Positions 42,286 to 63,826 of a stretch of DNA of 64,000 bases are shown here, in pieces. The translations under genes were made by a program, and so were the position numbers. The notes under the pieces were generated by a model. That model saw only the letters and a list, made by a program, of their open reading frames with translations. It was not told the origin of the DNA and did not search any database. The stretch covers positions 62,001 through 126,000 of the forward strand of contig CACYQD010000003.1 of the NCBI GenBank assembly GCA_902776475.1, in the 5' to 3' direction. How positions within the stretch are numbered: position 1 is the first letter of the stretch; each line of letters starts with the position of its first letter. This DNA is from an uncultured Prevotellaceae bacterium (lineage in GTDB: Bacteria > Bacteroidota > Bacteroidia > Bacteroidales > Bacteroidaceae).

Positions 42286-42360
42286 GGGCGTTTAGCTCAG
42301 CTGGTTTAGAGCATCTGCCTTACAAGCAGAGGGTCGGCGGTTCGAATCCGTCAACGCCCA
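42286..42360 (+). tRNA. tRNA-Val (anticodon TAC)
   Basis: 75 bases that fold as a full cloverleaf: acceptor GGGCGTT/AACGCCC with discriminator A, D-arm containing AGCTCAGCTGGTTTAGAGC, anticodon arm CTGCC-TTACAAG-style loop with anticodon TAC, and T-arm GGCGG-TTCGAAT-CCGTC. The 3' CCA is not encoded. It has its own promoter and terminator. Confidence 0.97.
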
Positions 42361-45395: not shown

Positions 45396-46799
45396 ATGGA
45401 AGAAATACGTAGGACTAAGGTCGTTGACGTGCTCCAGCGCACGGACTTCGGCTCAGTGGTCAATGTCAAAGGCTGGGTGCGCACGCACCGCAGCAGCAAA
45501 TCAGTGGATTTCATCGCGCTCAATGACGGTTCCACCATCAAGAACGTTCAGGTGGTGGTCGATACGGCGAAGTTTGACCCCGCCCTGCTGAAGCAGATCA
45601 CCACAGGTGCTTGCATCAGCGTGAATGGTTTACTCGTCGAGAGTCAGGGAGCAGGACAGACCAGTGAGGTGCAGTGCCAGGAGATAGAGATCTACGGACT
45701 CTGCGGCAGCGACTATCCCATGCAGAAAAAGGGACAGAGTTTTGAGGTGATGCGCAAAAACGCTCATCTGCGCCTGCGCACCAACACGTTCGGTGCTGTC
45801 ATGCGCATCCGCCATCACATGGCTATCGCCATTCATGACTATTTCCACAAGCATGGCTTCTTCTATTTCCATTCTCCCATCATCACAGGCAGCGACTGCG
45901 AGGGTGCCGGACAGATGTTCCAGGTGACCACCAAGAACCTCTATGACCTGCGCAAGGATGAGGAGGGGAAAATCATCTATGATGATGACTTCTTCGGCAC
46001 ACAGACCTCTCTCACCGTCAGCGGACAGCTGGAGGGTGAGTTGGGAGCCACGGCTCTCGGTGCCATTTATACTTTCGGTCCCACTTTCCGTGCGGAGAAC
46101 TCCAATACACCGCGCCATCTCGCGGAGTTTTGGATGATCGAACCTGAAGTGGCTTTCATCGGACTCGATGAACTGATGGACCTGGAGGAGGATTTCATCA
46201 AGTATTGCGTGCAGTGGGCTCTCGACAACTGCAAGGATGACCTGGAGTTCCTCAACAAGATGATCGACAAGACGCTGATTGAGCGCCTGAAGTCGGTGGT
46301 TGACGGCTCCTTCGTCCGCCTGCCTTACACAGAGGGCATCCGCATCCTGGAGGAGGCTGTGGCCAACGGACACAAGTTTGAGTTCCCCGTCAGTTGGGGC
46401 ATGGACCTGGCCTCTGAGCATGAGCGCTACCTCGTCGAGGAGCATTTCAAGCGCCCTGTCATCATGATCAACTATCCGAAAGACATCAAGGCTTTCTATA
46501 TGAAGATCAACGACGACGACAAGACCGTCCAGGGCACTGACGTGCTGTTCCCGCAGATTGGCGAGATCATTGGCGGCAGTGTGCGTGAGGAGAATTACGA
46601 CAAGTTGATGTCGGAGATTCATCGCCGTGACATCCCGATGAAGGATATGTGGTGGTATCTTGATACCCGTAAGTACGGAACATGCCCGCATGGTGGTTTC
46701 GGACTGGGTTTCGAGCGCCTGATCCTTTTCGTGACAGGCATGCAGAACATCCGCGACGTCATCCCGTTCCCCCGTACGCCGAAGAGCGCGGAATTCTAA
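45396..46799 (+). CDS. asnS: Asparaginyl-tRNA synthetase
   Basis: 467 residues, class II synthetase. An N-terminal OB-fold anticodon-binding domain (about 15-110, [22 protein letters not shown]) is followed by the catalytic core with [21 protein letters not shown] (motif 2 region) and [22 protein letters not shown] (motif 3). [13 protein letters not shown] and [16 protein letters not shown] mark AsnRS rather than AspRS. It attaches Asn to tRNA-Asn. It probably shares a transcript with the gene upstream and ends at a clear terminator. Confidence 0.96.
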
Positions 46800-46824: not shown

Positions 46825-46853
46825 AGCCTCACACCTCGGTGTGGGGCTTTTTT
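46825..46853 (+). terminator. Terminator of asnS
   Basis: AGCCTCACAC / GTGTGGGGCT hairpin with loop CTCG, followed by TTTTTT. Confidence 0.88.
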
Positions 46854-46869
46854 CGTGGCGTCAGGATAC

Positions 46870-47076
46870 AAAAACGGGACCGCATCTCACGACGCAGTCC
46901 CTAGTCTTGATGAAATAACTAAATGTATGAAATCATTTCATGAAAAACGTCTGCTGAAACTGACATCTTGCGCCCACGTGATGTGGAGCGCAAGGATGTC
47001 TTAATATTAAGTTGAATGATCCTGTGTGTTGATAATAATGAAGTTAGCTCTTATATAATTGATATCTTATATTCAC
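46870..47076 (-). ncRNA. Candidate regulator-controlled small RNA downstream of the susCD locus
   Basis: Minus-strand transcript predicted from the promoter/operator at 47081-47153. About 205 bases with no ORF longer than 14 codons. It contains a strong hairpin (GACATCCTTGCGC / GCGCAAGATGTC, 46962-47000). It ends in an intrinsic terminator: GGGACTGC / GCGGTCCC stem (46876-46901) followed by G and TTTTT (46870-46874). It lies just after the last gene of the locus, in the same orientation. The alternative is the relic leader of a lost susC copy. Confidence 0.5.
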
Positions 47077-47080
47077 AACG

Positions 47081-47153
47081 CAAAGGTAAGCATTTGACGT
47101 GAATGACGGCTTTATTTTCGTCTCAAATCCTTTGTTGGATGTCTCAATCGCCA
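47081..47153 (-). promoter_or_regulatory. Second copy of the susC operator with a -7 box
   Basis: TACCTTTG on the minus strand (47081-47088). On the plus strand, GTCTCAAATCCTTT (47120-47133), 7 bases, GTCTCA (47141-47146): direct repeats 21 bases apart. Sequence, spacing and the 32-base distance to the -7 box equal those upstream of susC. No TTTG lies at -33, as expected for an activator-dependent promoter. It points away from the annotated operon, into the candidate RNA. Confidence 0.7.
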
Positions 47154-47215: not shown

Positions 47216-48688
47216 CTATTTGCGCACGCCGAAGTTCTCGCGGGATTCGTCGTTGATGACACGGCTGGCCTGATAACTGTCGAAGTGGGTTGGGCCGATG
47301 ATGAAATCCGGCACATTGAAGGAGAGGAACCGCTCACGATAGAAACGGCGCGGATTGCGCTGCGGCAGCATGAAGGCCTTGCTGACACCTCCCTTGGCAT
47401 CGACGTGGCAGAAATAGGGCCGTGTGAAGAGACCGTCATCGCGGCGGGAACTGAAGACGAGCCAGCGCGAGTTTGTGGTCCAGTTGTGGAAAGATTCTGT
47501 GTCTTTGGAGTTGGCTCCAGCCATGGGCCGGCTCTCTCCGGTGGCGAGATCGAGCAGATAGAGGTCGGCTTCATGATGCCAGATGCTGAACTGTCCGTAG
47601 TCGGAGAGGGTGTAGCAAAGGAAACGCCCGTCATAGGAGGGACGGGGGAAGGAGACCGATTTCTGCTGAGCCACGGCATCGACAACGGTGTCTATGTGGT
47701 CGCCGAACTTCCCTGTAGCGGGGTCGAAATCGATGCGGTAGAGGTTGTAGCGGATGGAGTCGAGCTGATGGTTATCCTCAGGGAGGGCCCGGGCCGCACA
47801 GAAATAGAGCGAACGGCCGTCAGCGGAAAAGACGGGATAGGTCTCATAGATTGAGTCTTGCTTGAGTAGGGGCGACAGCAACAGCTCGTTTTTGTCGACG
47901 TCATAGACCTGGAGGTCGGAGGCCTCGTCGAAGACTTCAATCAGGTTGGGGTGCGCACTGTGAAACGTCTGTTTCGTCGTGTTGGTGGAATAGGCGATGT
48001 AGCGGCCCGTGGGATGCCAGTAGGGATAGACACAGAGGCCAAGCGTCTGGTCGGTCTTGGTGTTGTAGGCGGTGATGGAGCCATCGCCCTTGCGCAGCAG
48101 TGTGGCGCCATGTGGGCCACGGATGTGAAGGCTCATTTTGGAAGGGTCGCCGCGGTTGAAGCTATGGCAGTTGACACAGCCCTCAAACTGTGTGTTCTCA
48201 ATCAGCGGACGCTCATCAAAAGAGGAGAGGTCGCGCTCGTAAATGCCCATTTTGCTCCACACCTCATGGCCTGGGGCGATAAGGCGGTAACAGATGCCGT
48301 AGTCGATGCTGTCAGGACTGACATAGAGGGAGAAGGGGCGGTAGGTGTGCCAGCCATCGGCATACTTGGCCGAAACGGTGACGCTGAGCGAGTCTCCCCG
48401 GTTCTGGCTGAGCAGCTGACGCCAGTCGTCAAGGCCGAAATCCACCGATTCCTCGCCCTGGCTATGCAGGTTGTTTCCGTGGCGGTCTGTGATGACAGCA
48501 TCTATGAGCAAGGCCGCGTCATCTGCCATGCTGAAGTTGAGAGGTGCGATATTCACAGGTATGGTGACACCGAGGTAATCGGGATAGATCTGAGGCTGAA
48601 CAGTCTCCTGTCTGGCATCGCTGACGGTTTCTGTGGTGCAGGCAGAGGCCAACAGAAGGCAGAGAAGTGTATATAGAACCTTTTTCAT
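47216..48688 (-). CDS. Beta-propeller lipoprotein with one CxxCH haem motif (copy 2)
   Basis: 490 residues. The lipoprotein signal ends at ASAC (Cys17). The N-terminal part (IYPDYLGVTIPVNIAPLNFS) is followed near residue 170 by GCVNCHSF, a c-type haem attachment motif. TolB/PD40-like propeller blades come after it (YPYWHPTGRYIAYSTN, YPVFSADGRSLYFCAA, FPRPSYDGRFLCYTLS). It should sit in the periplasm or at the surface, anchored by lipid. Its paralogue at 50335-51873 shares these segments. Its ATG overlaps the stop of the membrane protein gene upstream by 4 bases. An electron-transfer or haem-sensing role is possible; no enzyme activity can be assigned. Confidence 0.8.
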   Translation of the reverse strand: MKKVLYTLLCLLLASACTTETVSDARQETVQPQIYPDYLGVTIPVNIAPLNFSMADDAALLIDAVITDRHGNNLHSQGEESVDFGLDDWRQLLSQNRGDSLSVTVSAKYADGWHTYRPFSLYVSPDSIDYGICYRLIAPGHEVWSKMGIYERDLSSFDERPLIENTQFEGCVNCHSFNRGDPSKMSLHIRGPHGATLLRKGDGSITAYNTKTDQTLGLCVYPYWHPTGRYIAYSTNTTKQTFHSAHPNLIEVFDEASDLQVYDVDKNELLLSPLLKQDSIYETYPVFSADGRSLYFCAARALPEDNHQLDSIRYNLYRIDFDPATGKFGDHIDTVVDAVAQQKSVSFPRPSYDGRFLCYTLSDYGQFSIWHHEADLYLLDLATGESRPMAGANSKDTESFHNWTTNSRWLVFSSRRDDGLFTRPYFCHVDAKGGVSKAFMLPQRNPRRFYRERFLSFNVPDFIIGPTHFDSYQASRVINDESRENFGVRK

Positions 48689-50307
48689 TGCTCAGGGTAT
48701 TGGAGTTGTAGTTTGGTATAGTTTTCACGGTCGCCCGTCAGCATATAGTAGGCCTTCAGATACTCATAGGCAAGGTGATTGTCGGTGTTGCTGAGGAAGA
48801 GGCGCTGGAGCATATCTGAGGTCACATGGTCACCGAAGAAAAAATTTTCTTTGTAGGCCATTTGGCGCAGGCGGCCGTATTCGGGATGCTTGGCAATCGC
48901 CTTCTCATCTCCCAACAGGGGCAACGTTTCGTTGGCCCAGTCACGGTAGAAGAGGGTCTTCTTCAGTGCTGTGAGATATTTGCGGGCCACTTCGTAATGG
49001 CCGAGGATCAGATTGGTCTGTGCCAGTCGCTTGTAGCATCGGCCACTTTTCTGGAAGTCGAGAATGGCCTCCTGTGCTTCGAAGACCGTGCGCTGGGCGA
49101 CAGTGATCATCCCCAACTGATAGAAGGCCTCGGCGGTAGGCATAGGACTGGTCGCATCGGTCCCGATATCGGGCAGGAGGCCTAAGAGGCCGTTTTGGTT
49201 ATAGTCAAACAGGTGCTGGGTGAGCAAGCCTCGCATGCCCAGGGCAAGATTCTGCACAGTCACCCCGATCTGGTTGTTGGGCCTATCGGTGTTGATGGTC
49301 TCAAGGATGCGGTTCCATTGCTGATAACGGGCCATAAAATCATATTTCATCACCTTTTCGGCTTTGAAATTGCTGTTTTTCCAAACAATACTGCCCATCA
49401 CGGCGGCCACCACTACAAAAGAGGCAAGGGGTAGGAGATAGGAGGAAGGAATCACGGGGACAGGTTTTTGATTCTGGCCAGAATCAGGCAACCTGTCCCC
49501 ATGATTCTGCCTGTCCCCATGATTCTGCAGCGCACGGGCAATGAGCACAAGGATAAATACAGCCAGGACCGCAAGCCAAAGCACAATAGGTATTGCTGTC
49601 GGGTAGCGATGGTAATGTATGCCGAAACACAGGTTGCTGGATGGCACCGGGAGATAATATGCCAAAATGACAGGCATCAGCAGCAAAAGGATCACGGAGA
49701 CCCGGGTCACATGGACGGTTCCCTGGTTCACGGGGACGGTTCTGGTGATCCATTTTTCTACTGAAACGGCCTGCAGGAGAAAGAACAGCAGACAGACAGG
49801 CCCCACCATCCAGTAAAGCACAGGAATGGCCACAAAGATCAGCACGCGCCACAGCCAATTACGAGGCAACGCATCGAAAAGCCATGCTGCGAGGAGGGTG
49901 AGCAAGACAGCCCAGACACCGCCCAGCAGGGCATTCTCATCGAGCAGGAAGAGCCAGAGCAGAAACGAAGGCACAAAGCTAAGGCCATAGAGCAGTCCTC
50001 CGCTCACCTTTGCCCCTTGGCCCGTTTTTGAATTGATCAGCCGGAGCGTCAGCAGTTGCACTGCCATGAGCAGAACCGCAATGATGAGTGCTCCTATCCA
50101 CGCGTAAAGGAAAAACTGTGTGCAGAACCGCCCCAGCAGGTCAGCCACACCGCCGGGGAGTTTTACAATATCCCACACATAGGCGCAGTCGAAGAGGAAA
50201 AGCTGAAACTGCTCCTGGTAATGCAGGTGATGCGGATAGGCCAGTCCGAAAAAGAGGAGAACGGCCGCACCGAAGAGAATTGTGCATATTGTACGTAAAA
50301 CCTTCAT
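48685..50307 (-). CDS. Polytopic membrane protein with helical C-terminal domain (copy 2, DUF6057-like)
   Basis: 540 residues. The N-terminal half carries about nine hydrophobic segments (for example ICTILFGAAVLLFFGLAYP, YAWIGALIIAVLLMAVQLL, IPIVLWLAVLAVFILVLIA). The C-terminal half (about 320-540) is soluble and TPR-like (AEAFYQLGMITVAQRTVFEAQ, YKRLAQTNLILGHYEVARKY). It shares layout and motifs with the gene at 51918-53666. The loop around residues 260-287 (LQNHGDRQNHGDRLPDSGQN) and that near 185-200 are encoded by palindromic repeats absent from the paralogue. The function is unknown; the family name is my best recollection, not a search result. Confidence 0.75.
   Translation of the reverse strand: MKVLRTICTILFGAAVLLFFGLAYPHHLHYQEQFQLFLFDCAYVWDIVKLPGGVADLLGRFCTQFFLYAWIGALIIAVLLMAVQLLTLRLINSKTGQGAKVSGGLLYGLSFVPSFLLWLFLLDENALLGGVWAVLLTLLAAWLFDALPRNWLWRVLIFVAIPVLYWMVGPVCLLFFLLQAVSVEKWITRTVPVNQGTVHVTRVSVILLLLMPVILAYYLPVPSSNLCFGIHYHRYPTAIPIVLWLAVLAVFILVLIARALQNHGDRQNHGDRLPDSGQNQKPVPVIPSSYLLPLASFVVVAAVMGSIVWKNSNFKAEKVMKYDFMARYQQWNRILETINTDRPNNQIGVTVQNLALGMRGLLTQHLFDYNQNGLLGLLPDIGTDATSPMPTAEAFYQLGMITVAQRTVFEAQEAILDFQKSGRCYKRLAQTNLILGHYEVARKYLTALKKTLFYRDWANETLPLLGDEKAIAKHPEYGRLRQMAYKENFFFGDHVTSDMLQRLFLSNTDNHLAYEYLKAYYMLTGDRENYTKLQLQYPEQ
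49449..49525. repeat. Palindromic repeat inserted in frame in the membrane-protein gene
   Basis: GAATCACGGGGACAGG (49449-49464) and CCTGTCCCCATGATTC (49492-49507) are inverted copies (15 of 16 match) around a perfect palindrome GATTCTGGCCAGAATC (49470-49485). A further direct copy is at 49510-49525. It lies wholly inside the gene at 48685-50307 and encodes a hydrophilic loop. Confidence 0.8.
49690..49750. repeat. Second in-frame palindromic repeat in the same gene
   Basis: GGATCACGGAGACC and GGTTCTGGTGATCC form imperfect inverted ends. The inside holds GGACGGTTC twice. It encodes the loop RTVPVNQGTVHVTR between two hydrophobic segments. It shares the GGGGAC core with the repeat at 49449. Confidence 0.65.
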
Positions 50308-50334
50308 TTTGACAAAGAGTAAGTGGTGAAAAGA

Positions 50335-51873
50335 TCAGAAAAAGACCTGCCTGAACTCATCGACGCTGATCCGGACGGGTTCGACCATGAACTCCGGACG
50401 ATTGTAGCTTTTCAGACGCGTGGTGTTTTGCTCAGGATCTTCCTGCGGCAAGAGGAAGGCTTTTTCGGCCTTTCCGTTATTGAAATAGGAGATATAGACT
50501 CGGCTGAAGTTGCCATCCACTCGACGGCTGGCACACATGATCCAATGGCCGTTGCTCGACCATGTGGGATAGCTCTCGGCAAAGCCTTTGCTGTTGAGGC
50601 GGGTCAGGTCGAGGGGAGAGGCTGCCTCTTGGGCTGGGTCGGTGCCTGGTTTCTGGTCGAGCGGCAGACAGACGATGTCGGCATCGTGGTGCCAGATGTG
50701 AAAGCAGCCATATTGGCCCAAGGCAAAGAGCAGATAGCGCCCGTCGGGGCTGATGCGTGGCAGAGTGGCGCTCTTGTCTTGTGAGGCGGCATCATAGATG
50801 AGTTCCTCTTCGCCGAAGTTGCGAGATGCCACGTCGAACGGGCGGCGATAGAGGTTGTATTGCACCTTCTGGAAGGTAAATCTGATATCCTTGTCACGCA
50901 GCTCTTCTGGCAGCGGAACAGACTTGCAGTAATAGAGGTATTTGCCATCGGGCGACCAGGTGGGGAACACTTCCAACAGCGTGGAGTCGTTGCTGATGAT
51001 GCTCACCGAGTCGGTAGCCACATCATAGAGAATCAGGTCGCTCGCCGAGTCGAAGACCTCCACTTTGTTGGGATGTGCCGTATGAAACACCTGGTGGGTC
51101 TGGTTGGTGGAGAAGGCGATCAGTTTGGCGGTAGGATGCCATGCTGGATAGACTCCGGCGGAGATGGTATAGTCGCGCTTCAGATCTACTTTCGACACTT
51201 TGCCGTCGTTAACAATGACGGTGCCGCCTCGGGTCACACGCGCATGAAAGAGCATGTTGTCGGTCTTGTAGTTCTGATAGCTGTGGCAGTTGATGCACTG
51301 GCCTTGGGGGTCATCGCAGCTGACCTTGTTGTTGAAAATCTGGGTCTCTTCAAACGAGGTGAGGTTGCGCTGGGCAATTTCCATGTAGTCGTAAACGATA
51401 TACGACGGTTCGATGAGGCGATACGACAGATACTCGTCGATGGGCTCTTCGGCCACATGTATCTCAAACGGGCTGAACGACAGCCATTCTCCTTCTTGTC
51501 CATTCCCGGGATCCTGCCTTCCCGTGGCCTTTCCCCAAACCTCGACCTTGATGCTCTTGCCCTTGGCGGCACTGAGCATGTCATGCCATTCCGATTCGGG
51601 TATCTGCACCTTCACTCCTTCGCCGTAGGTCTGCTGCGCACCATCGGGTGTGGTAAGGCGTGCCACGCATGCTTCATACTGGTCGGCTGGGAGCATGAAG
51701 TTGAGCGGCGCAATGTTGCAAGGCACGGTGACATCGCAGTAATCGGGGAAGATGGCAGGCAGGCATTTGGCCTCACGGCTCGAAGAGGGTACTTCGGGGT
51801 GATGCGCACACGATGTCATGAACAGCACGGTGGCTGCCAACAGCAGGAAACAGGAATGGATATATCTTTTCAT
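50335..51873 (-). CDS. Beta-propeller lipoprotein with one CxxCH haem motif (copy 1)
   Basis: 512 residues from the ATG at 51873, which gives a lipoprotein signal (LLLAATVLFMTSC, Cys22). Segments match the copy at 47216: IFPDYCDVTVPCNIAPLNFM, then GQCINCHSY near residue 195, then propeller blades YPAWHPTAKLIAFSTNQT, FPTWSPDGKYLYYCKS and LPRISPDGRYLLFALGQ, each with the PD40 (W/I)SPDG core. The single CxxCH suggests one covalently bound haem c. It lies 44 bases after the membrane-protein gene at 51918. I infer that the two proteins act together, because the pair is duplicated as a unit. Confidence 0.8.
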   Translation of the reverse strand: MKRYIHSCFLLLAATVLFMTSCAHHPEVPSSSREAKCLPAIFPDYCDVTVPCNIAPLNFMLPADQYEACVARLTTPDGAQQTYGEGVKVQIPESEWHDMLSAAKGKSIKVEVWGKATGRQDPGNGQEGEWLSFSPFEIHVAEEPIDEYLSYRLIEPSYIVYDYMEIAQRNLTSFEETQIFNNKVSCDDPQGQCINCHSYQNYKTDNMLFHARVTRGGTVIVNDGKVSKVDLKRDYTISAGVYPAWHPTAKLIAFSTNQTHQVFHTAHPNKVEVFDSASDLILYDVATDSVSIISNDSTLLEVFPTWSPDGKYLYYCKSVPLPEELRDKDIRFTFQKVQYNLYRRPFDVASRNFGEEELIYDAASQDKSATLPRISPDGRYLLFALGQYGCFHIWHHDADIVCLPLDQKPGTDPAQEAASPLDLTRLNSKGFAESYPTWSSNGHWIMCASRRVDGNFSRVYISYFNNGKAEKAFLLPQEDPEQNTTRLKSYNRPEFMVEPVRISVDEFRQVFF

Positions 51874-51917
51874 GGTTCTCTCGCGTTTCGATTTCTTTTT
51901 CAATTTCGACAAGTTCA

Positions 51918-53666
51918 TCATTGGGCATTTACTCCGAAGATGTTGTACCACCAATAGGTGTCTCCCCATTCTTCGCGCATGTTCTCGCCGATATTCTCTA
52001 TTTTCACACCCGACCTGGCCATTTTTTCCAAGGATTCCCAGAATTGTTTGTAACGATTGAAAACAGGCTGTTCGACAGGAAGCATCATCCGTTTTTCTTC
52101 TGGAGACTTATCCATAAACATGATATAAGCCTCCTGTGCATGCAAGGGAAATTTATCATTGGGGTGCAACTTCACATATTTGCGCAGCGCAGCCCAGAAA
52201 CGACCTGAGTCGCGACGGATCATGGAATAGAACAATGCCTGTTCTGAAACCGCTTTGCTGACTGTGTCGGATGCGTGGCTAAAACTATCGATAATATAGC
52301 GTTCGCAGTTGTTCTCAACACCATTGATCTCGTCTGCGAAGGATTTTTGCAGTTCGTTAATCGTGTTCGTGACGGGGGCGGGTTGCCAGTTGCCATAAAA
52401 CAGGTTGTGATGCAGCAGGGTGGTGTAGCGTTCTTCTAATTTCTTTTCTCCTGTAGCACGGGCACAGCGTGAAATCATCTTCATGTAGAAGGGTGAGAAA
52501 CCCGTGGCTACGGCATTTTCATAGCTCAGACGGATGGCATAGTTTGACTTCCCGTAGTTGTAATACACCAAAGGAGAAGCTATGTTCAACAAGCCGATGT
52601 GGAGCGAGTCGGGGTTGTGGACATCCACACCATGGTTGCAGAGCTTGAACGAACGATCAAGCAGCCCTCCTTCGTTTGTCAGGGCAATATTCTTGAGCAT
52701 GACCATTGTGTGGGTGGGCTGTTTGCTCTCTTCTGCTACATGAAGCACCTCCTGCCAGTTGTCGGCTTCAGCATGGCGCACCATGCGTATCTCGTCGATG
52801 TAGTTCTTGTCACTGAACATCAGCGAATAGGTGAAGAGAATGCCTGAAACAGCACATAACACCGGTACAAGTGCCTTGTTTAAATACTTCCCGCACAGCG
52901 GGATGAGTACAGAGACAATGGCCAGTACCCAAAACGGGATAGAGAGTCGCTCACTTGATTCGACAGGTGTCACGAAACGGGGAAAGCCTGCCATCATGAC
53001 ATCAGCGGGATTTTGATCCGAGTAGAGCAAAGCACGCCAGATGTAGGCTGTAAAGACGAGCAGGATGATGCCTATCAGTTCCCGCCAGGTGGGTTTCTCA
53101 GCAAGCACCAGACAGAGTATGAAAAGCAAGGCAAACCATCCCAATACAGGATAGAGGCAAGCGCCCAACAGATACCAGAGAAAATGCCATTTGCGTGGGG
53201 TGCTGCGGGTTGCCCACAAAAGCAGCAGCATGACAAGGAAACCTGCCGACTGGGAAAACCAGTAGCCTCTTATGGTGAAGATATATATCCAATAGCCCAA
53301 ATCAACGATGGATGTGAGCAAACAAGCAATCGGCAGGAGCATCAGGGCTGAGGCATTTCCACTTAACCTAAATGCTTTCGCACCCACCAGGAAAATGAAC
53401 ACCCAGATGGCTGCCAAAACACTTGCACCTAAGGCCGGATAATAGAAGAGTTGTGTGAGCCAAGCGCCCACATACTGCATCAGACCAAAGGGTTTTGAAA
53501 GGAGTGTATGGAAGAAGGGTGCTCCGAAGATGAATTCAGAACGGTCGTGCACCGTATAGAGCACATCCTGATTCATCCACAAGATGTAAACGGCAAATGA
53601 AATGAAAGCCAAAAGACTTACATACAGAAAAACCTTGGATAATTTGTTTCTTCCCATTACTTCCAT
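51918..53666 (-). CDS. Polytopic membrane protein with helical C-terminal domain (copy 1, DUF6057-like)
   Basis: 582 residues. About ten hydrophobic segments occupy residues 10-300 (VFLYVSLLAFISFAVYILW, ASVLAAIWVFIFLVG, LLWYLLGACLYPVLGWFALLF-type helices). A soluble helical domain of about 270 residues follows (ADNWQEVLHVAEESKQPTHT, YAIRLSYENAVATGFSPFYM, EERYTTLLHHNLFYGNW). The shared pattern F..PFF..LL..P.G...Y.G.WLTQ.FYYP..GA near residues 45-85 also occurs in the copy at 48685. No catalytic motif is recognised. Probably in the cytoplasmic membrane. The alternative ATG at 53657 would shorten it by three residues. Confidence 0.75.
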   Translation of the reverse strand: MEVMGRNKLSKVFLYVSLLAFISFAVYILWMNQDVLYTVHDRSEFIFGAPFFHTLLSKPFGLMQYVGAWLTQLFYYPALGASVLAAIWVFIFLVGAKAFRLSGNASALMLLPIACLLTSIVDLGYWIYIFTIRGYWFSQSAGFLVMLLLLWATRSTPRKWHFLWYLLGACLYPVLGWFALLFILCLVLAEKPTWRELIGIILLVFTAYIWRALLYSDQNPADVMMAGFPRFVTPVESSERLSIPFWVLAIVSVLIPLCGKYLNKALVPVLCAVSGILFTYSLMFSDKNYIDEIRMVRHAEADNWQEVLHVAEESKQPTHTMVMLKNIALTNEGGLLDRSFKLCNHGVDVHNPDSLHIGLLNIASPLVYYNYGKSNYAIRLSYENAVATGFSPFYMKMISRCARATGEKKLEERYTTLLHHNLFYGNWQPAPVTNTINELQKSFADEINGVENNCERYIIDSFSHASDTVSKAVSEQALFYSMIRRDSGRFWAALRKYVKLHPNDKFPLHAQEAYIMFMDKSPEEKRMMLPVEQPVFNRYKQFWESLEKMARSGVKIENIGENMREEWGDTYWWYNIFGVNAQ

Positions 53667-53683
53667 ACTTAAAATGTATAATA

Positions 53684-53708
53684 GGCTGACCCAATAAATG
53701 AGTCAGCC
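53684..53708 (-). promoter_or_regulatory. Intercistronic hairpin after the SusCD-lipoprotein genes
   Basis: GGCTGAC / GTCAGCC stem with an 11-base loop in the 74-base gap between the lipoprotein and the membrane-protein gene. There is no U-run. It may be a processing or partial-termination point that sets higher expression of the upstream genes. Confidence 0.5.
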
Positions 53709-53740
53709 CATTATTAATTAACTATACCAATAAGGAATGA

Positions 53741-54457
53741 TTATTCCTCATAGTAAACGCTCGTAAAGGTAGCAGAGCCGTTGGTAATCAAGAGGTTGAG
53801 GTCACGACCTTCACCGCCGTTACCCTTGGCGCACTCCTTGGCAATCTGCTCAGTAAGCTCAACTTCCCACTTCATTCCAGGAGTAAGAGGAATGTTGTCT
53901 TTATACACAGAGCTCCACCAACCATTCATGATACGGGCAGTACAACCATCAGTGGCGTCCTTGACGTCAACAATGAGGGTCTTGAGACCAAAGTAGATGT
54001 CGTCGGAGAGAGTCGGGAAATTCTGACCTTCGCTGTCGCTGAAGCGCAGAGGTGCGGAGTCCCAACCGCCAACGGTGAATTCACCTTCCCAAAGGGTGTA
54101 CTTGGTGAGGGGATCAGTGATCTCGTTGCAGGAAACAGGGAAGTCTAATTTAAGCTCTGTTCCATCTGCACAAAGAGCAGTCAAGACAACTGTATAGTCA
54201 CCCAACTTCATCTTCTTTTTAGCATAGTTGCTGAAGAATTCCTTGCCACCAATATTCCACTTGGCATTGACAGGTGCTGAAGTTGAGCAGGTAATGACAT
54301 TACCATTCTGGCCACTGGCTGCTTTGTCAACAGTGACGGTAGTCTTTGCCTTGAGCTCCTCAAGCGTAATGTTGCCGGCGTTTTTGATATCCTCCGATAC
54401 TGGATCGCAGGCTACAAGCATACATACTGCGGCAAAAAACAAAAATATCTTTTTCAT
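53741..54457 (-). CDS. Lipoprotein encoded after SusD (putative surface binding protein)
   Basis: 238 residues. Lipobox MLVAC (Cys17). N-terminal domain about 30-110 (beta-rich, WNIGGKEFFSNYAKKKMKLGDYTVVLTALC, PKD/Ig-like). The C-terminal beta-sandwich (about 120-238, TLWEGEFTVGGWDSAPLRFSD ... DLNLLITNGSATFTSVYYEE) resembles carbohydrate-binding jellyrolls. In loci of this kind the third gene usually encodes a surface ligand-binding lipoprotein that works with SusCD. It is 21 bases after susD. Confidence 0.72.
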   Translation of the reverse strand: MKKIFLFFAAVCMLVACDPVSEDIKNAGNITLEELKAKTTVTVDKAASGQNGNVITCSTSAPVNAKWNIGGKEFFSNYAKKKMKLGDYTVVLTALCADGTELKLDFPVSCNEITDPLTKYTLWEGEFTVGGWDSAPLRFSDSEGQNFPTLSDDIYFGLKTLIVDVKDATDGCTARIMNGWWSSVYKDNIPLTPGMKWEVELTEQIAKECAKGNGGEGRDLNLLITNGSATFTSVYYEE

Positions 54458-54478
54458 ATATAATGCCTAATTAAAATA

Positions 54479-56365
54479 TTAATAAAGTGTCGTATATTGA
54501 GTTTTGGCATCAGCTGCATCCCAACCGGGGTTCTGCTCCATCTTACCATTCATCAAGGTAATCTGAGACTGAGGCTTAGCCAAGAAACCGTTAGTAGCAA
54601 TGTAGCGCTCGGCCCAAGAACAGGTCATGTGTGCCATCGTACGCTTGTTTGACTTATCGCCAAGGCAGACAATCTGCTTGCCGGCCTGAGCCTGGAGTGC
54701 CTTAGGAGCGTATGAGTCATTGGTGGGCTTGTTGCCAGTCCAACGACGCATGTCGTTGAAGCGGAGACCCTCAAATGCGAACTCCCAACGACGCTCGTTC
54801 TGAACGGCCTTCAGAGAGTAGGGTGTCTGAGGAACACCGGCACGGGCCTGAACCTGGTTCATGTAAGAAGCATCACCAGTGAGCTCGGTAAGCATCAGAA
54901 GCACGTCGGGATAGCGCATCAGATAGAAGTCCTCGAAGTGGTCACCCTGCATCTTGTTGTCGAGTGAACTACCGGTATAACCAGGAGCCTGAGACCACCA
55001 TGTGTCGTTGTTGGCAGCGCAAGCGTCAAGGTTCACCTCAGCATACTTCTTCACGGAATAGCCAGACTCCTCGCAGTCGTCCTTCTCATAGGTGTACTGT
55101 GCAAGCTCGTTGTCGAGGTCGATCAAAGAAGCTTTCTTGCGGAGGTCGGTGTAGTTGCCGGTTCTCTCAGCATCTGTCCAGTCATCCCAGATGTTGCAGG
55201 AAGGAGTACCCTGACCCCAGCCCTGGTTGAACGGATAAGTCAGGTTACGGTCACCATTCTGGTTGGAGGCACCGTTACGCAGACCCCAGAACACGGAGAT
55301 GTAGTTGGAGTACATACGCTGAGCGTTGTAGGTTCCACCAATGGCCCAAGCAGAGGCATTCATAAACTGAATCTGGAAGATTTCCTCAGTGTTGCCGTTA
55401 CCCATACCAGGCTGGTCGAAGCAATTCTCACGCTTCATGTCGGCGATATATTCATAGGCATGGCCTTCGCCATCATGAGCCTCATCCCAGAGAAGACTGT
55501 TGGAGTACTGCCAGAGTGAACGGAAGTCCTCGCAGAGCTTGTAACCACCATTGGCCACGATGTCCTTCAGACCATTGACGACGTCGGCCTGAGTAAGCTG
55601 ACCTGCGGGGCAACCCTCCTGCTCAACGAGAGTAATGGCGGGAGCACCACCGGAAGCGAGCTCACTGACATTCTTATAGAAGCCAGCCCAGAACATGTAA
55701 GCACGGGCAATGAAGCCCTCAGCAACGAACTTGTTGGCATGGCCAGAGCTCTTCTCTGCGCTCATGAGATTCTTGGCAGAAACGAAGTCAGAGAGAATCT
55801 GCGGATAGATGATTTCCTCAGCGCTGACCTGCTGCCACATCTCTTCGGTGATGGTGGTAGAGGTGATTAGAGGCACATCGCCAAACAACTGGGTAAGCCA
55901 CAGGGTGTAGAGACCACGCATGAAATAAGCTTCACCGAGAAGTTGATTGCGGCGTGGCTTCTGATTTTCAGTCCAAGGCACATTGTCGATGGTCTCAATC
56001 GTGTTGTTGGTACGTGCAATACCGCCATAGAGAAGGATGAAAGGAGTCTCATACTGATTCACATTCATCTCTACAAGGTGATGAAGAGATTTCACCTTGT
56101 TGTCCTGCAAACCGCCACTGCCAAAGCAGTCGTCAGACATCACTTCCCACCAGAAGAAAATGTTCTGGTTGTCAGAGTCACCACCACCCATGGTATTCAT
56201 GATACTGTAGGTTGCAGCAATCTCAGCCTCAACATCTGCAGGTTTGCCGGGGAAAGTGGCCTGGGTCAACTGAGTCACACGTGGATCGGTATCCAACATG
56301 TCGTTACAAGCTGTAAACAAAGTTGCTGACAAAACAGCTAACGTTGAAAAAATATATTTCTTCAT
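54479..56365 (-). CDS. SusD/RagB-family outer-membrane lipoprotein
   Basis: 628 residues. Lipobox LFTAC (Cys20) and then NDMLDTDPRVTQ. The TPR-containing SusD fold is visible: an N-terminal region (about 25-330) with ARTNNTIETIDNVPW and LLGEAYFMRGLYTLWLTQLFGDVPLIT, and a C-terminal part with RYPDVLLMLTELTGD and NERRWEFAFEGLRFNDMRRW, the classic family signature. SusD caps the SusC transporter and binds the substrate at the cell surface. It starts 14 bases after susC. Confidence 0.96.
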   Translation of the reverse strand: MKKYIFSTLAVLSATLFTACNDMLDTDPRVTQLTQATFPGKPADVEAEIAATYSIMNTMGGGDSDNQNIFFWWEVMSDDCFGSGGLQDNKVKSLHHLVEMNVNQYETPFILLYGGIARTNNTIETIDNVPWTENQKPRRNQLLGEAYFMRGLYTLWLTQLFGDVPLITSTTITEEMWQQVSAEEIIYPQILSDFVSAKNLMSAEKSSGHANKFVAEGFIARAYMFWAGFYKNVSELASGGAPAITLVEQEGCPAGQLTQADVVNGLKDIVANGGYKLCEDFRSLWQYSNSLLWDEAHDGEGHAYEYIADMKRENCFDQPGMGNGNTEEIFQIQFMNASAWAIGGTYNAQRMYSNYISVFWGLRNGASNQNGDRNLTYPFNQGWGQGTPSCNIWDDWTDAERTGNYTDLRKKASLIDLDNELAQYTYEKDDCEESGYSVKKYAEVNLDACAANNDTWWSQAPGYTGSSLDNKMQGDHFEDFYLMRYPDVLLMLTELTGDASYMNQVQARAGVPQTPYSLKAVQNERRWEFAFEGLRFNDMRRWTGNKPTNDSYAPKALQAQAGKQIVCLGDKSNKRTMAHMTCSWAERYIATNGFLAKPQSQITLMNGKMEQNPGWDAADAKTQYTTLY

Positions 56366-56379
56366 AATCTATTGTCGAA

Positions 56380-59300
56380 TTAGAATTTAATACTTGCACC
56401 AATCAGGTAAGTACGAGATGTCGGGTAAAGACCCAGGTCAATACCAGAAGCCCAACCTGTACCACCACCTGAATTACCTACCTCAGGATCGAGACCCGTG
56501 TAACCGGTGAAAGTAATGAGGTTCTGGGCCTGGACATAGAGACGGAGTTGCTGGAACGGACAAGCTTTCCAAAGATGCTTGAAGTCATAACCGAGAGTCA
56601 CGGTCTTGATCTTGAAGTAGTCAGCATCCTCCATGTAGCGGTTGGAGACCCAAATGGTGCCTGGGTCACCAGTCTTTGAAATACGAGGCTGGGTGTTTGA
56701 GGTGCCCTCACCATGCCAACGGTTCAGGATGGTGGTGTCGTAGTTCTGATCAGGATCATCACCGAATGAACGGTAAGAACGCATGATCTGCATACCGAAT
56801 GCACCAGCACCGTTTACAGCAAAGTCAAGACCCTTCCAGGTGAAACCGAGGTTGATACCAAGGGTGATATCCGGGTTAGGATTACCAATCTCATGACGGT
56901 CGCAAAGGTCACCTTCTGCGTGGGTAATCACACCATCACCGTTCCAGTCATCCCAAATGGGGTCACCAGGTACAGCGTTGTCGAGGACAGCTTTGCCGGC
57001 TGCACGTGCAGCATCAATCTGTGCTTGGTTCTGCCAGATACCGCTATAAGACATACCGTAGAAGTAACCGATAGGCTTGCCTTCCTCAGCACGATAGACG
57101 TACTCAGTACCCTGTGAGAGGACACCGCCGGGACCGTTGATATAGTGGTTCTGGTTGGCGATACGGGTTACCTCGTTCTTGTTGGTTGCAAAGTTCACAC
57201 CGACATTGTAGTTGAAGTCGCTGCCGATTTTGTCGTTCCAGGTAAGAGCAAGCTCGATACCTGTATTCTTCACGTCACCACCATTGATGGCTGCAGGATT
57301 GGTACCGTAGATGGCAAGCAGGTTACCACCGATCAGCCAGTCCTTTGTGGATTTCTTATACCAGTCGAAGTTCAAACCCAAACGGCTGTTGAGGAAGCGG
57401 GCATCGAAACCGAAGTCAAGCTGCTCAGAAGTTTCCCAAGTAAGGTCGGGGTTAGGCACGATGTCTGCATAGGCACCTGTATAAGGAGTACCTGAAGTAG
57501 AAGTCAGCATATCTGAACCGAACTTGTAACCGCTGTCGTTAGCACTGCCAGACAGAGCAATTGTTGCCAGATACTGATACTTGTCGATACGGTTGTTACC
57601 GTTCTGTCCCCAAGATGCACGGATCTTGAAGAAGTCCATCCAGCTCTTGGTGCTCTCCATGAAAGGCTCATTGCTCACTACCCAACCAGCAGAAATTGAG
57701 GGGAAGACACCCCAGCGCTTGCCGTCGGTGAAGATACTTGAACCATCATAACGCAGAGTAGCGGTAGCCATATAGGTCTCATTCCAGTCCCAGCTTACAC
57801 GGCCGAACCAAGAAGCGAGATACTCTTCGTCATTGGGGTTACCTGACAGAGAGGCATCAGTAGCAGCGTTAAGTTTGATGTTGGACAGCCATGCAGAATC
57901 CCAGTTCCTCAGTGTAGCGAGTTGCTCACCGTTGACAACCTTGTTGGAGCCACTCATGTTGAAACTCCAAGCGGTGCTCTGATAAGTCTGACCCACCATG
58001 GCGCTGATCTTGTGACCATTCAGAATAGGAAGATCATAGGTAAGGGTGTTCTCAACAGACCAGTTGGTGCTCAGCCAAGTGTTCTGGCTTACATTATAAG
58101 AATTCACGATAGCTGCACCTTCAGCCGGAGCACGAGGCTCTCCAAAGTTACGATAGGCACCTGATCCCCAGTTGTAGTTAAACTGTGTGCGGAATCTCAG
58201 ACCCTTGATCGGCTGGATAACTGTGAAAACAGTGGCGCTGGTATTGATGTTGCGGCTCTCTGCCTTAGAGTTGAAGCCACCCTTGGAGAGGTTCTCCCAG
58301 GGGTTGCTGAACATTGATGGGTTCCAACCCTGGCCATAACCAGGAGTGCCATCAATATTTTGATAAGAATAGATATCACCATTGTCAGCATACTGCGGCA
58401 CGAGCGGAGAAGTCTGGAGCAAACTGTGGATATAGCTCCAGTACATACCATCCTCAGCCAGGTCGTGATTCTTGTTGTAGCCAATGGAGATGTTCTCACC
58501 GATGGTGATGGCATCGAAGTCCTTAGCCTTCAGGAGCACGTGGTCGCTGTTGATGCGGATGGTGTGGCGCTTGTAGAAAGAAGCCATATCTGCACCCATG
58601 ATACCTTCGTTGCTGGTATAGGTGTAAGACATAGCAAACTTGGAACGGTCTGTACCACCAGTCAGCGTCACAGAATGGTTGTTCTGCACGGCATTCTTGT
58701 TGGTGAATACATCCCACCAGTCGGTACCTTCCCAACCTTGGCCAACCTTGGCGAGGATGTCAGCAGGAACATAATCAGACCAATTCAATGTTGAACCAGT
58801 AGTATTGAAGTTGAACTCGTCAAAGATGGTCATATACTGCTGGGCATTGAGGAGTTGTGGACGCTTGTAAGCGTTTGACCAACCGATAGCTCCATTGTAG
58901 CTGAGCTCAATCTTGCCGGCCTTACCTTGCTTGGTGGTGACGAGGATCACACCGTTGGCAGCACGGGCACCATAGATGGCAGCTGAAGCGGCGTCCTTCA
59001 AGATGTCGATGCTCTCGATGTCAGCGGGGTTGATGCCATCGAGGTTGCCACCTGCAACACCGTCGATCACATACAGAGGCTGTGCATCACCAGTGGTACC
59101 GATACCACGGATGTAAACCTTGTATCCCTTGCCAGGCTGTGCGGATGACTGGGTGATCTGCACACCAGGAGTGCTTGACTGCATAGCCTCGAGTGCGTTG
59201 GTGGTGTTCAGCTTGGCGATTTCATCACCTTTGACCTGAACAGTAGCACCAGTCACCAGTTTCTTCTTCATGGTACCGTAACCGATAACCACCACGTCAT

Positions 59301-59616
59301 TCAGAGATGAAACGTCTTCTCTGAGGGTGACTTGGATGTTGTTACGTCCCTGCACATTGACGGTCTCAGTGACATAACCCACATAAGAGATCAACAGAGT
59401 GGCATTGCTCGAAGCCTCCACACTGAATTTACCATCGAAGTCGGTGACTGCACCAGTCTTGGCACCTTGCACTTGCACAGTTGCTCCAATAATGGGCTCA
59501 CCAGCTTCATCAATTACCGTTCCTTTAACAGTCCCCTGTGCCATAGCTCCCATTGGGAACAAGCAAAGCAGGAACAGCATCATCAACGGCATTCTCATGA
59601 TTTTTGTAATGCTCAT
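56380..59616 (-). CDS. SusC/RagA-family TonB-dependent outer-membrane transporter
   Basis: 1078 residues from the ATG at 59616, which fits the signal peptide (MPLMMLFLLCLFPMGAMAQ) and promoter; the longer frame upstream covers the promoter. Order: carboxypeptidase-like regulatory domain (about 27-105, GTVIDEAGEPIIGATVQVQG); TonB-box region SLNDVVVIGYGT; plug (about 115-235: GVQITQSSAQPGKGYKVYIRG, DAASAAIYGARAANGVILVTT); and a 22-strand-type barrel ending in LIGASIKF, with a terminal aromatic residue as usual for barrels. It imports the ligand captured by SusD with TonB energy. The substrate is not evident, since no CAZyme genes follow. Confidence 0.97.
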   Translation of the reverse strand: MSITKIMRMPLMMLFLLCLFPMGAMAQGTVKGTVIDEAGEPIIGATVQVQGAKTGAVTDFDGKFSVEASSNATLLISYVGYVTETVNVQGRNNIQVTLREDVSSLNDVVVIGYGTMKKKLVTGATVQVKGDEIAKLNTTNALEAMQSSTPGVQITQSSAQPGKGYKVYIRGIGTTGDAQPLYVIDGVAGGNLDGINPADIESIDILKDAASAAIYGARAANGVILVTTKQGKAGKIELSYNGAIGWSNAYKRPQLLNAQQYMTIFDEFNFNTTGSTLNWSDYVPADILAKVGQGWEGTDWWDVFTNKNAVQNNHSVTLTGGTDRSKFAMSYTYTSNEGIMGADMASFYKRHTIRINSDHVLLKAKDFDAITIGENISIGYNKNHDLAEDGMYWSYIHSLLQTSPLVPQYADNGDIYSYQNIDGTPGYGQGWNPSMFSNPWENLSKGGFNSKAESRNINTSATVFTVIQPIKGLRFRTQFNYNWGSGAYRNFGEPRAPAEGAAIVNSYNVSQNTWLSTNWSVENTLTYDLPILNGHKISAMVGQTYQSTAWSFNMSGSNKVVNGEQLATLRNWDSAWLSNIKLNAATDASLSGNPNDEEYLASWFGRVSWDWNETYMATATLRYDGSSIFTDGKRWGVFPSISAGWVVSNEPFMESTKSWMDFFKIRASWGQNGNNRIDKYQYLATIALSGSANDSGYKFGSDMLTSTSGTPYTGAYADIVPNPDLTWETSEQLDFGFDARFLNSRLGLNFDWYKKSTKDWLIGGNLLAIYGTNPAAINGGDVKNTGIELALTWNDKIGSDFNYNVGVNFATNKNEVTRIANQNHYINGPGGVLSQGTEYVYRAEEGKPIGYFYGMSYSGIWQNQAQIDAARAAGKAVLDNAVPGDPIWDDWNGDGVITHAEGDLCDRHEIGNPNPDITLGINLGFTWKGLDFAVNGAGAFGMQIMRSYRSFGDDPDQNYDTTILNRWHGEGTSNTQPRISKTGDPGTIWVSNRYMEDADYFKIKTVTLGYDFKHLWKACPFQQLRLYVQAQNLITFTGYTGLDPEVGNSGGGTGWASGIDLGLYPTSRTYLIGASIKF

Positions 59617-59687: not shown

Positions 59688-59760
59688 CAAAAGTATTAAA
59701 ACGCGCATAATGCGGGTTTTTTTCATGTCTCAAATCCTTTACTTTTTGTCTCATGACCTT
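59688..59760 (-). promoter_or_regulatory. susC promoter and direct-repeat operator
   Basis: Minus-strand TACTTTTG (59688-59695), with no TTTG at -33. Upstream, on the plus strand: TGTCTCAAATCCTT (59726-59739) and TGTCTCATGACCTT (59747-59760), direct repeats with a 21-base period (two helical turns). This suits tandem binding of an AraC-type DNA-binding domain such as that of the hybrid regulator next door. The 5' UTR is about 65 bases. An identical arrangement is at 47081-47153. Confidence 0.72.
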
Positions 59761-63756: not shown

Positions 63757-63826
63757 GAAAGTGACATATACTGTTCAGAGGCGGTCTGTGAAGACAGATG
63801 GCCATACCTCTTCGCATATTGTTCGG

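Follow-up and report, generated by a model that had tools for sequence, protein, structure and literature searches.

The window, by which we mean the whole stretch of 64,000 nucleotides analyzed here, derives from a Prevotella-like gut bacterium and contains a minus-strand locus for sugar uptake that extends from the gene of a hybrid two-component sensor (HTCS) through susC and susD to a predicted small RNA gene, located next to a convergent asnS-like gene. The features are listed below by coordinates in the window.

45396–46799, plus strand: asnS-like class II aminoacyl-tRNA synthetase gene (tRNA-synt_2 and OB fold), convergent; same neighbor in the related genome G393
46869–47074, minus strand: predicted small RNA gene, its 5' end placed by the -7 box and its 3' end by the T tract of the terminator; fold z-score -6.8, homologues in four other genomes
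46869–46901, minus strand: intrinsic terminator with GUGA loop, 11-bp stem and T tract
46910–46951, minus strand: core marked by conservation and pairing, with antisense block 1 (GACGTTTTTCATGAAA) and hairpin 2 (ATGAAATGATT/loop/AGTTATTTCAT)
46962–47000, minus strand: hairpin 1, GACATC...GATGTC; comparable hairpin in G393
47081–47088, minus strand: -7 promoter box TAnnTTTG, 31 bases past operator 2
47120–47146, minus strand: operator 2, direct repeat TGAGAC-N15-TGAGAC with 21-bp period; layout before the RNA kept in five of five genomes
47216–56365, minus strand: rest of the operon (susD, 238-aa protein, DUF6057, PD40, DUF6057, PD40)
56380–59616, minus strand: susC, start moved to the in-frame ATG after the promoter
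59727–59753, minus strand: operator 1, upstream of susC
59851–63756, minus strand: HTCS gene (Reg_prop, HisKA, HATPase_c, response receiver, AraC-type HTH)
63745–63760, minus strand: predicted target site over the HTCS start codon, perfect 16-bp complement

The start of susC was thus placed at 59616 rather than at 59754. No Pfam match was obtained for the 238-aa protein, and no Pfam glycoside hydrolase occurs among the genes between 47216 and 59616 (susC, susD and the two DUF6057/PD40 pairs). The asnS-like gene has its own terminator (46825–46848). Between the last operon gene (47216) and operator 2 no U-tract terminator was found; therefore, read-through from the PD40 gene into the small RNA is possible and could add to its supply.

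A composite operator at two sites of the locus

An earlier note on this DNA had claimed that one composite operator occurs both upstream of susC and at 47.1 kb. A scan of the window recovered GTCTCAAATCCTTT-N7-GTCTCA at exactly these two sites (47120–47146 and 59727–59753, 0 mismatches each) and revealed no further match with up to three mismatches. Shuffled windows contained 0.00 matches on average (100 shuffles), which agrees with the view of the note that chance is an unlikely explanation. Read on the minus, i.e. transcribed, strand, both sites consist of TGAGAC-N15-TGAGAC with a 21-bp period, followed by 31 bases and a TAnnTTTG box (TACCTTTG at 47088–47081 after the 47.1-kb operator; TACTTTTG at 59695–59688 after the susC operator). 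The period of 21 bases and the shared strand had been described correctly, whereas the distance to the box, given as 32 bases, is 31 intervening bases. In the whole genome from which the window derives (G000; 3.6 Mb, 55 contigs, 93.6% complete), the 27-base motif matched at the two window sites and, with three mismatches, at one position on contig C20 (C20:39293), which lies between unrelated genes and was rejected as a third operator. The extended pattern TGARAC-N15-TGARAC-N31-TAnnTTTG had two exact matches in this genome, both of them the window sites, and two matches with one mismatch.

HTCS binding motifs in print are direct repeats with an average of 21 bp between sites (PMC3878776, accessible part). 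The promoter of the predicted RNA likewise has a direct repeat of ~21 bp upstream of its -7 box, and its layout fits the printed HTCS sites, from which we infer that the HTCS binds and activates it.

The predicted small RNA gene and its homologues

The predicted minus-strand transcript of 207 nt folds with a z-score of -6.8, and none of 200 shuffled sequences folded as well. According to the earlier note, no gene follows the 47.1-kb operator, and our inspection of all minus-strand ORFs of at least 20 aa between 47074 and 46869 likewise yielded no plausible gene. Of these frames, one of 24 aa lies inside this region, a TTG frame of 213 aa runs through the operator and ends at 47044, and a TTG frame of 413 aa, antisense to asnS, begins at 46871. 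A short peptide encoded by the 24-aa ORF in the core was rejected, as an insertion breaks the frame in G320 (by eye). The note had also described about 205 bases with a 12-bp hairpin that end in a good terminator. The terminator was recovered, with a stem of 11 bp, and is the sole minus-strand terminator found between 47300 and 46700; the single hairpin gives way to three (46962–47000, 46910–46941 for hairpin 2, and the terminator itself). As predicted from the sequence, the element thus combines its own promoter and an intrinsic terminator with the lack of a conserved ORF. Comparison with Rfam gave only chance-level matches for the RNA. At gathering score, Rfam matched the window solely at a tRNA gene (42286–42360).

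When the stretch was compared by BLAST with 299 genomes of the genus, 12 genomes gave matches with E ≤0.01, of which those in G009 and G086 were strong (1e-18 or better) besides the own genome. A covariance model built from these three sequences and run against 398 genomes of the genus additionally found G393 (88.7 bits) and G320 (51.2 bits), with the next match at 40.3 bits. Model matches with E ≤1 were present in 110 of the 398 genomes, but only the five of at least 51 bits (own, G393, G320, G009 and G086) were counted; the lower ones were dropped by score and by eye. Among the best 30 loci, these lower matches (~33–40 bits) mostly share just the GUGA-loop terminator with the element. The match in G030 (39 bits) has no HTCS match in the nearest 12.5 kb and was not retained either. 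A second model, run against 397 relatives of G320 (E ≤1e-6), gave three matches, all of them previously found. A pattern shaped on the RNA sequences matched four records, own-genome records possibly being left out, in the contigs of 84,980 species; these records are uncultured Prevotellaceae or Prevotella MAGs, one of them from water buffalo rumen. One distant match to a viral contig (25% identity) was irrelevant.

Orthologues of the HTCS (79, 73, 67, and 67% identity) were found in four relatives in addition to the own genome, the next HTCS having 54% identity (up to two candidates scored per genome). Among the 398 genomes, those with an HTCS of at least 67% identity and those with an RNA match of at least 51 bits are the identical set of five. 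The surroundings of the RNA differ within this set. In G393 the RNA adjoins asnS (94.6% identical) at the far end of the locus, as in the window; here the HTCS is 79% identical and susC just 31%, i.e., the transporter (L059, 4042–7398) was exchanged under a kept regulator while the RNA was retained. In the other three relatives, the RNA gene is located just downstream of the HTCS gene, and it is followed by a convergent gene in G320 and by codirectional genes in G009 (DUF6057-PD40-GH95) and G086 (GH95). In the latter two genomes susC is divergent from the HTCS gene, with 45% (over the part fetched) and 79% identity, respectively. Hence, susC is a less constant partner of the RNA than the orthologous HTCS. 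The HTCS itself adjoins GH95 genes in G009 and G086.

Each of the five RNAs is preceded by the operator, the spacing of 31 bases and the TAnnTTTG box (the G009 operator is one base off TGARAC). When one mismatch was allowed, 18 matches of the composite pattern were obtained in the five genomes, compared to one match (in G009) of a reversed control pattern. Six of the 18 are those at the five RNAs and at susC of the window; of the other 12, ten lie 88–188 bases upstream of an ORF start (five of these ORFs susC-like by translation; three directly behind the end of an AraC-type regulator), and the remaining two (L141 and L142) precede a degraded susC start. Before an HTCS-adjacent susC, the composite is clear only in the window; it is approximate in G393 (TGACAC/TGAAAC, 32 bases, by eye) and was not seen in G320, G009, and G086. 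Joint control of susC and the RNA can therefore be proposed for the window, whereas all five genomes share the predicted control of the RNA. The earlier note had proposed a small RNA under the same hybrid regulator as the transport genes. Operator, box, core, and terminator are kept together in the five genomes with an orthologous HTCS. These patterns speak for a real small RNA, which is very probably under the control of the HTCS.

The RNA core of 41 nt, ACGTTTTTCATGAAATGATTTCATACATTTAGTTATTTCAT, is identical in G000, G393, G009, and G086 and diverged in G320. In the HTCS gene, the longest identical run across the ten genome pairs is 35 nt, and identical windows of 39 nt do not occur. No part of the HTCS gene thus reaches the conservation of the RNA core. 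In the terminator stem, four of the 11 pairs changed on both sides across the five genomes with pairing kept. Hairpin 2 shows no covariation (seven of 11 pairs invariant, four broken in one sequence), and the fold z-scores of the homologues decrease from -5.3 (G009) and -4.9 (G086) to -3.4 (G393) and -1.6 (G320, where 13 of 200 shuffled sequences folded equally well). Given the missing covariation in hairpin 2 and the weak fold in G320, the core seems to be held by sequence at least as much as by structure, and such a constraint at the sequence level seems to be what antisense pairing would require. The apical loop UCAUACAUUU is predicted to be free and is kept in four genomes. Upstream of the core, G320 has a different 5' hairpin in place of hairpin 1, which is absent in G009 and G086; in these two genomes the promoter sits immediately before the core, without a susC-like part. 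The 5' part of the window RNA, GAGCTAACTTCATTATTATCAACACA (47024–47049, minus strand), is identical in G393 (L058) and resembles a susC leader by eye.

Complementarity between the RNA core and the HTCS start region

The predicted target site of the core, TTTCATGAAAAACGTC, covers the HTCS start codon (ATG at 63756). In the own genome, exact copies of this site occur at the HTCS start and on the antisense strand of the RNA itself, with no others; allowing one mismatch adds one further site, which falls within a 576-aa ORF, on the opposite strand. The Watson–Crick runs between each RNA and its own HTCS start amount to 16, 14, 12, 11, and 15 nt in G000, G393, G320, G009, and G086, respectively (the order used below). 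The match in G086 comprises 15 bp plus a G-U pair, and the 14-mer of G393 has one other copy (C62), located at the start of no ORF of at least 60 aa. In G009 the pairing is split into two blocks of 11 and 10 bp, and in G320 it involves codons 5–8 of the HTCS (block 1) and the start (block 2). We considered and rejected a compensatory change at the orthologous G320 site, as the alignment puts both start codons together. In 25 homologous HTCS genes from other genomes (51–54% identity), the runs against the window RNA reach only 5–11 nt, so that the match is not a general HTCS feature.

By core duplex energy, the HTCS ranked 1, 1, 4, 7, and 1 among 301 start regions, which are mechanical ORF starts from the fetched loci and not a proteome; because just five related genomes exist, ranks are not independent across genomes. 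Of 2000 shuffled cores, 0, 1, 27, 41, and 1 equaled or beat the HTCS duplex. Opening costs were then included with three window settings (24/27, 16/16, and the full-core setting 42/40). With full-core windows the HTCS ranked 1, 3, 2, 2, and 1 of 329, with 16-nt windows 1, 2, 7, 34, and 1 of 329, and with 24-nt windows 1, 2, 2, 141, and 1. Complementarity of the RNA to the mRNA of its predicted activator is thus evident in all five genomes with full-core windows and fails in G009 with the shorter ones, where 140 (24-nt) and 33 (16-nt) of 328 background regions were as good as the HTCS. Most of the core is base-paired in its predicted structure, and opening it costs 7–11 kcal/mol in four RNAs and 2–6 kcal/mol in G320. 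With full-length RNAs, duplex energies overlapped between the five HTCS (-39.3 to -51.4) and the 25 homologues (-24.5 to -53.8), and hence only the core discriminates between them. Moreover, ATGAAAAA-type starts appear to be common and TTTCATGAAA is palindromic, which makes part of the HTCS match cheap.

Within the window locus, the HTCS scored -33.0 kcal/mol and the seven other genes, susC (-15.9 kcal/mol) among them, -12.2 to -21.1 kcal/mol. Of the targets suggested in the earlier note, susC is accordingly a poor one and was rejected, housekeeping mRNAs were represented only among the ~300 start regions of the fetched loci, and the best-supported target was instead the HTCS mRNA. A scan of 1.5 kb past the HTCS gene placed the longest match antisense to the start region within the element in G320, G009, and G086; in the same interval past the 25 homologous HTCS genes, no antisense match to the own start exceeded 13 nt. 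As an HTCS locus without the RNA has a chance match of 13 nt, match length alone is weak in this downstream scan.

Co-divergence was assessed in a 5 × 5 table of RNAs and HTCS with opening costs at the three window sizes. The HTCS of G320 paired best with its own RNA, the sole diverged one, at all sizes (-9.1, -8.4, and -6.9; best other RNA -0.7, -6.4, and -1.8), and so did the HTCS of G393 (-4.8, -6.6, and -6.2; best other RNA -3.3, -5.9, and -5.1). The G009 HTCS preferred its own RNA only with full-core windows. For G000 and G086, near ties or slightly better values with another near-identical RNA were obtained at some sizes; these follow from the near-identity of the cores and are no proof of matching. 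By plain duplex energy, the own core was not the best partner of the G320 HTCS (-23.9, against -27.3 for the G009/G086 core), nor, by a small margin, of the G086 HTCS (-28.0, against -28.5 for the G393 core). We regard the evidence for co-divergence as real, but as resting on one or two genomes.

A putative feedback loop, its alternatives and known systems

In the proposed mechanism, a glycan signal would activate the HTCS, which would bind the TGARAC-N15-TGARAC operator of the small RNA gene and, in the window, that of susC, so that transporter and small RNA would both be made by HTCS-driven transcription. The RNA core GACGUUUUUCAUGAAAUGAUUU...AGUUAUUUCAU would then form a duplex with the HTCS mRNA around its start codon (a perfect 16-bp match in the window genome) and block HTCS translation, and a strongly induced regulator would thereby limit its own synthesis. 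The first half of this mechanism, transcription and activation by the HTCS, is deduced from the layout and the co-occurrence, and the second half, duplex formation in the cell and repression, from the complementarity. The whole loop, an HTCS-activated small RNA that represses HTCS translation in a negative feedback of the OmrA/B–ompR kind, appears to us a probable reading. We also lean, with some caution, toward a broader interpretation: a dedicated sensor-activated antisense RNA may cap HTCS synthesis, and this RNA, not the transporter, may be the most faithful evolutionary partner of the HTCS, with susCD exchanged or moved around a kept RNA and operator.

Alternatively, a real HTCS-activated small RNA could act mainly on other mRNAs, the HTCS match being incidental or secondary. 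Some background start regions were within a few kcal/mol of the HTCS or better in single genomes, the free conserved loop is unused by block 1, and the target ranking covers start regions of fetched loci and not whole proteomes. Against this stand the ranks of the HTCS with full-core windows, between 1 and 3 of 329 in each of the five genomes, the uniqueness of the exact 16-mer genome-wide apart from the RNA itself, the far poorer scores of the seven other genes of the window locus, and the fit of the diverged G320 RNA to its own HTCS when opening costs are included. We thus consider a different main target unlikely. Less plausible still, and quite improbable in our view, is a leader with an attenuating terminator: transcription would be started by the HTCS, and its extension into the following genes would be controlled at the terminator. 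This arrangement would suit G009 and G086, where the element lies between the HTCS gene and codirectional DUF6057 or GH95 genes, the stem is ~43 (G009) or ~54 bases (G086, to the second in-frame ATG) away from the start codon, and no other promoter box was seen by eye. However, in three of the five genomes (window, G393, and G320) no codirectional gene follows and the next gene is convergent (ORFs and tblastn), and no antiterminator fold was noticed on informal inspection.

The earlier note had offered a fossil leader of a deleted second susC as its other explanation. The susC-leader-like 5' part of the RNA and the existence of degraded susC starts behind HTCS-type promoters at L141 and L142 are in keeping with such a remnant, transcribed without function, but only the 5' part has this likeness. 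The core is conserved beyond any stretch of the HTCS gene, in contrast to what neutral decay would leave, the terminator stem kept its pairing through changes on both sides, and no susC-like part separates promoter and core in G009 and G086; we give this explanation hardly any credence. Extremely unlikely, too, is an element whose main role is to terminate and stabilize the operon mRNA or the HTCS mRNA at its 3' end, the second promoter being minor, since this leaves the kept operator and -7 box and the antisense match unexplained, even though a codirectional PD40 or HTCS gene of the system precedes the element in all five genomes and, in the window, its terminator is the only one found on the minus strand between 47300 and 46700.

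HTCS proteins belong to the major regulators by which gut Bacteroidota sense sugars, and to our knowledge little is known about how their amount in cells is limited. An RNA core that matches the HTCS mRNA start, under an apparent operator of the same HTCS, makes such control directly testable. Among regulatory RNAs that could serve as models, OmrA and OmrB act on multiple targets and are aided by the chaperone Hfq. For these RNAs, work in Escherichia coli and Yersinia describes a two-component regulator that activates a small RNA repressing the regulator's own mRNA; the predicted OmrA/OmrB–ompR pairing in Yersinia overlaps the ribosome-binding site and forms a negative feedback loop (PMC12692685, accessible part). 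The system proposed here resembles OmrA/OmrB–ompR-envZ in that a regulator-activated RNA is predicted to be aimed at the mRNA of its regulator, and differs from it in the phylum and in that a single-locus RNA would address a one-polypeptide hybrid sensor; the likeness drawn here is one of loop design. InvR, which is encoded in the Salmonella island SPI1, pairs at the ribosome-binding site of hilA and represses hilA (PMC11925239, accessible part). The RNA predicted here shares with InvR that it is encoded in the same island as the activator that it would limit. Regulator type and phylum are different, and InvR is activated by HilD/HilC, not HilA, and has been demonstrated experimentally (same source). 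InvR–hilA and OmrA/B–ompR both count as established examples of such a loop.

In Bacteroides thetaiotaomicron, GibS and FopS pair at start codons, FopS being located in sugar-utilization loci. According to the text available, FopS has 14 members with canonical sigma-ABfr promoters and mainly susC-type mRNA targets, and GibS has an unstructured 5' seed (PMC11697453, PMC7366714). By contrast, the RNA described here has one copy, an HTCS-type operator, a hairpin seed, and a regulator as its predicted target, and the window susC pairs poorly with it; this distinction is based on published descriptions. GibS, FopS, and DonS act on the mRNAs of enzymes, transporters, or operons (PMC7366714, PMC11697453, PMC10994844; accessible parts). 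Like DonS-type RNAs of Bacteroides, of which DonS is described as lowering the output of its locus, the predicted RNA is attached to one utilization locus. In these accounts, DonS-type RNAs lie opposite or divergent to the operon, whereas the RNA in the window shares its strand with the HTCS gene, the predicted target, which lies ~16.7 kb away, and is therefore not a cis-antisense RNA of the DonS type. A factor proposed to be an RNA-binding protein or a small RNA sets the amount of Roc, which is 74% identical to a putative HTCS, via the mRNA leader, and three candidate small RNAs were insufficient to raise this amount (PMC10294740, accessible part). We found no small RNA targeting an HTCS mRNA in the literature searched, whose scope excluded most subscription papers.

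Two other kinds of elements were observed in these genomes. L142 (G000:C14:34143–34208) and L141 (G393:C56:8681–8746) each contain a second HTCS-type promoter without an intact gene nearby, followed by a degraded susC-like start (MFVDFRKLF..., by eye) and then by the hairpin CTGCTCTCTTATGCGCAAGAGGGCAG; this element is likely a true susC fossil or a leader RNA, kept in G000 and G393. In addition, an RNA-like element recurs at ~1400–1640 of L033, L035, L037, L040, L046, L049, L051, and L055–L057. It consists of a box like TTAGTATTAGACACATTGTTTTGGTATT and the terminator GGTGCTGCGTCGTGATGACGCGGCACC, some copies are located after susD-like ends (by eye, e.g., in L037), and it looks like a widespread family in the genus.
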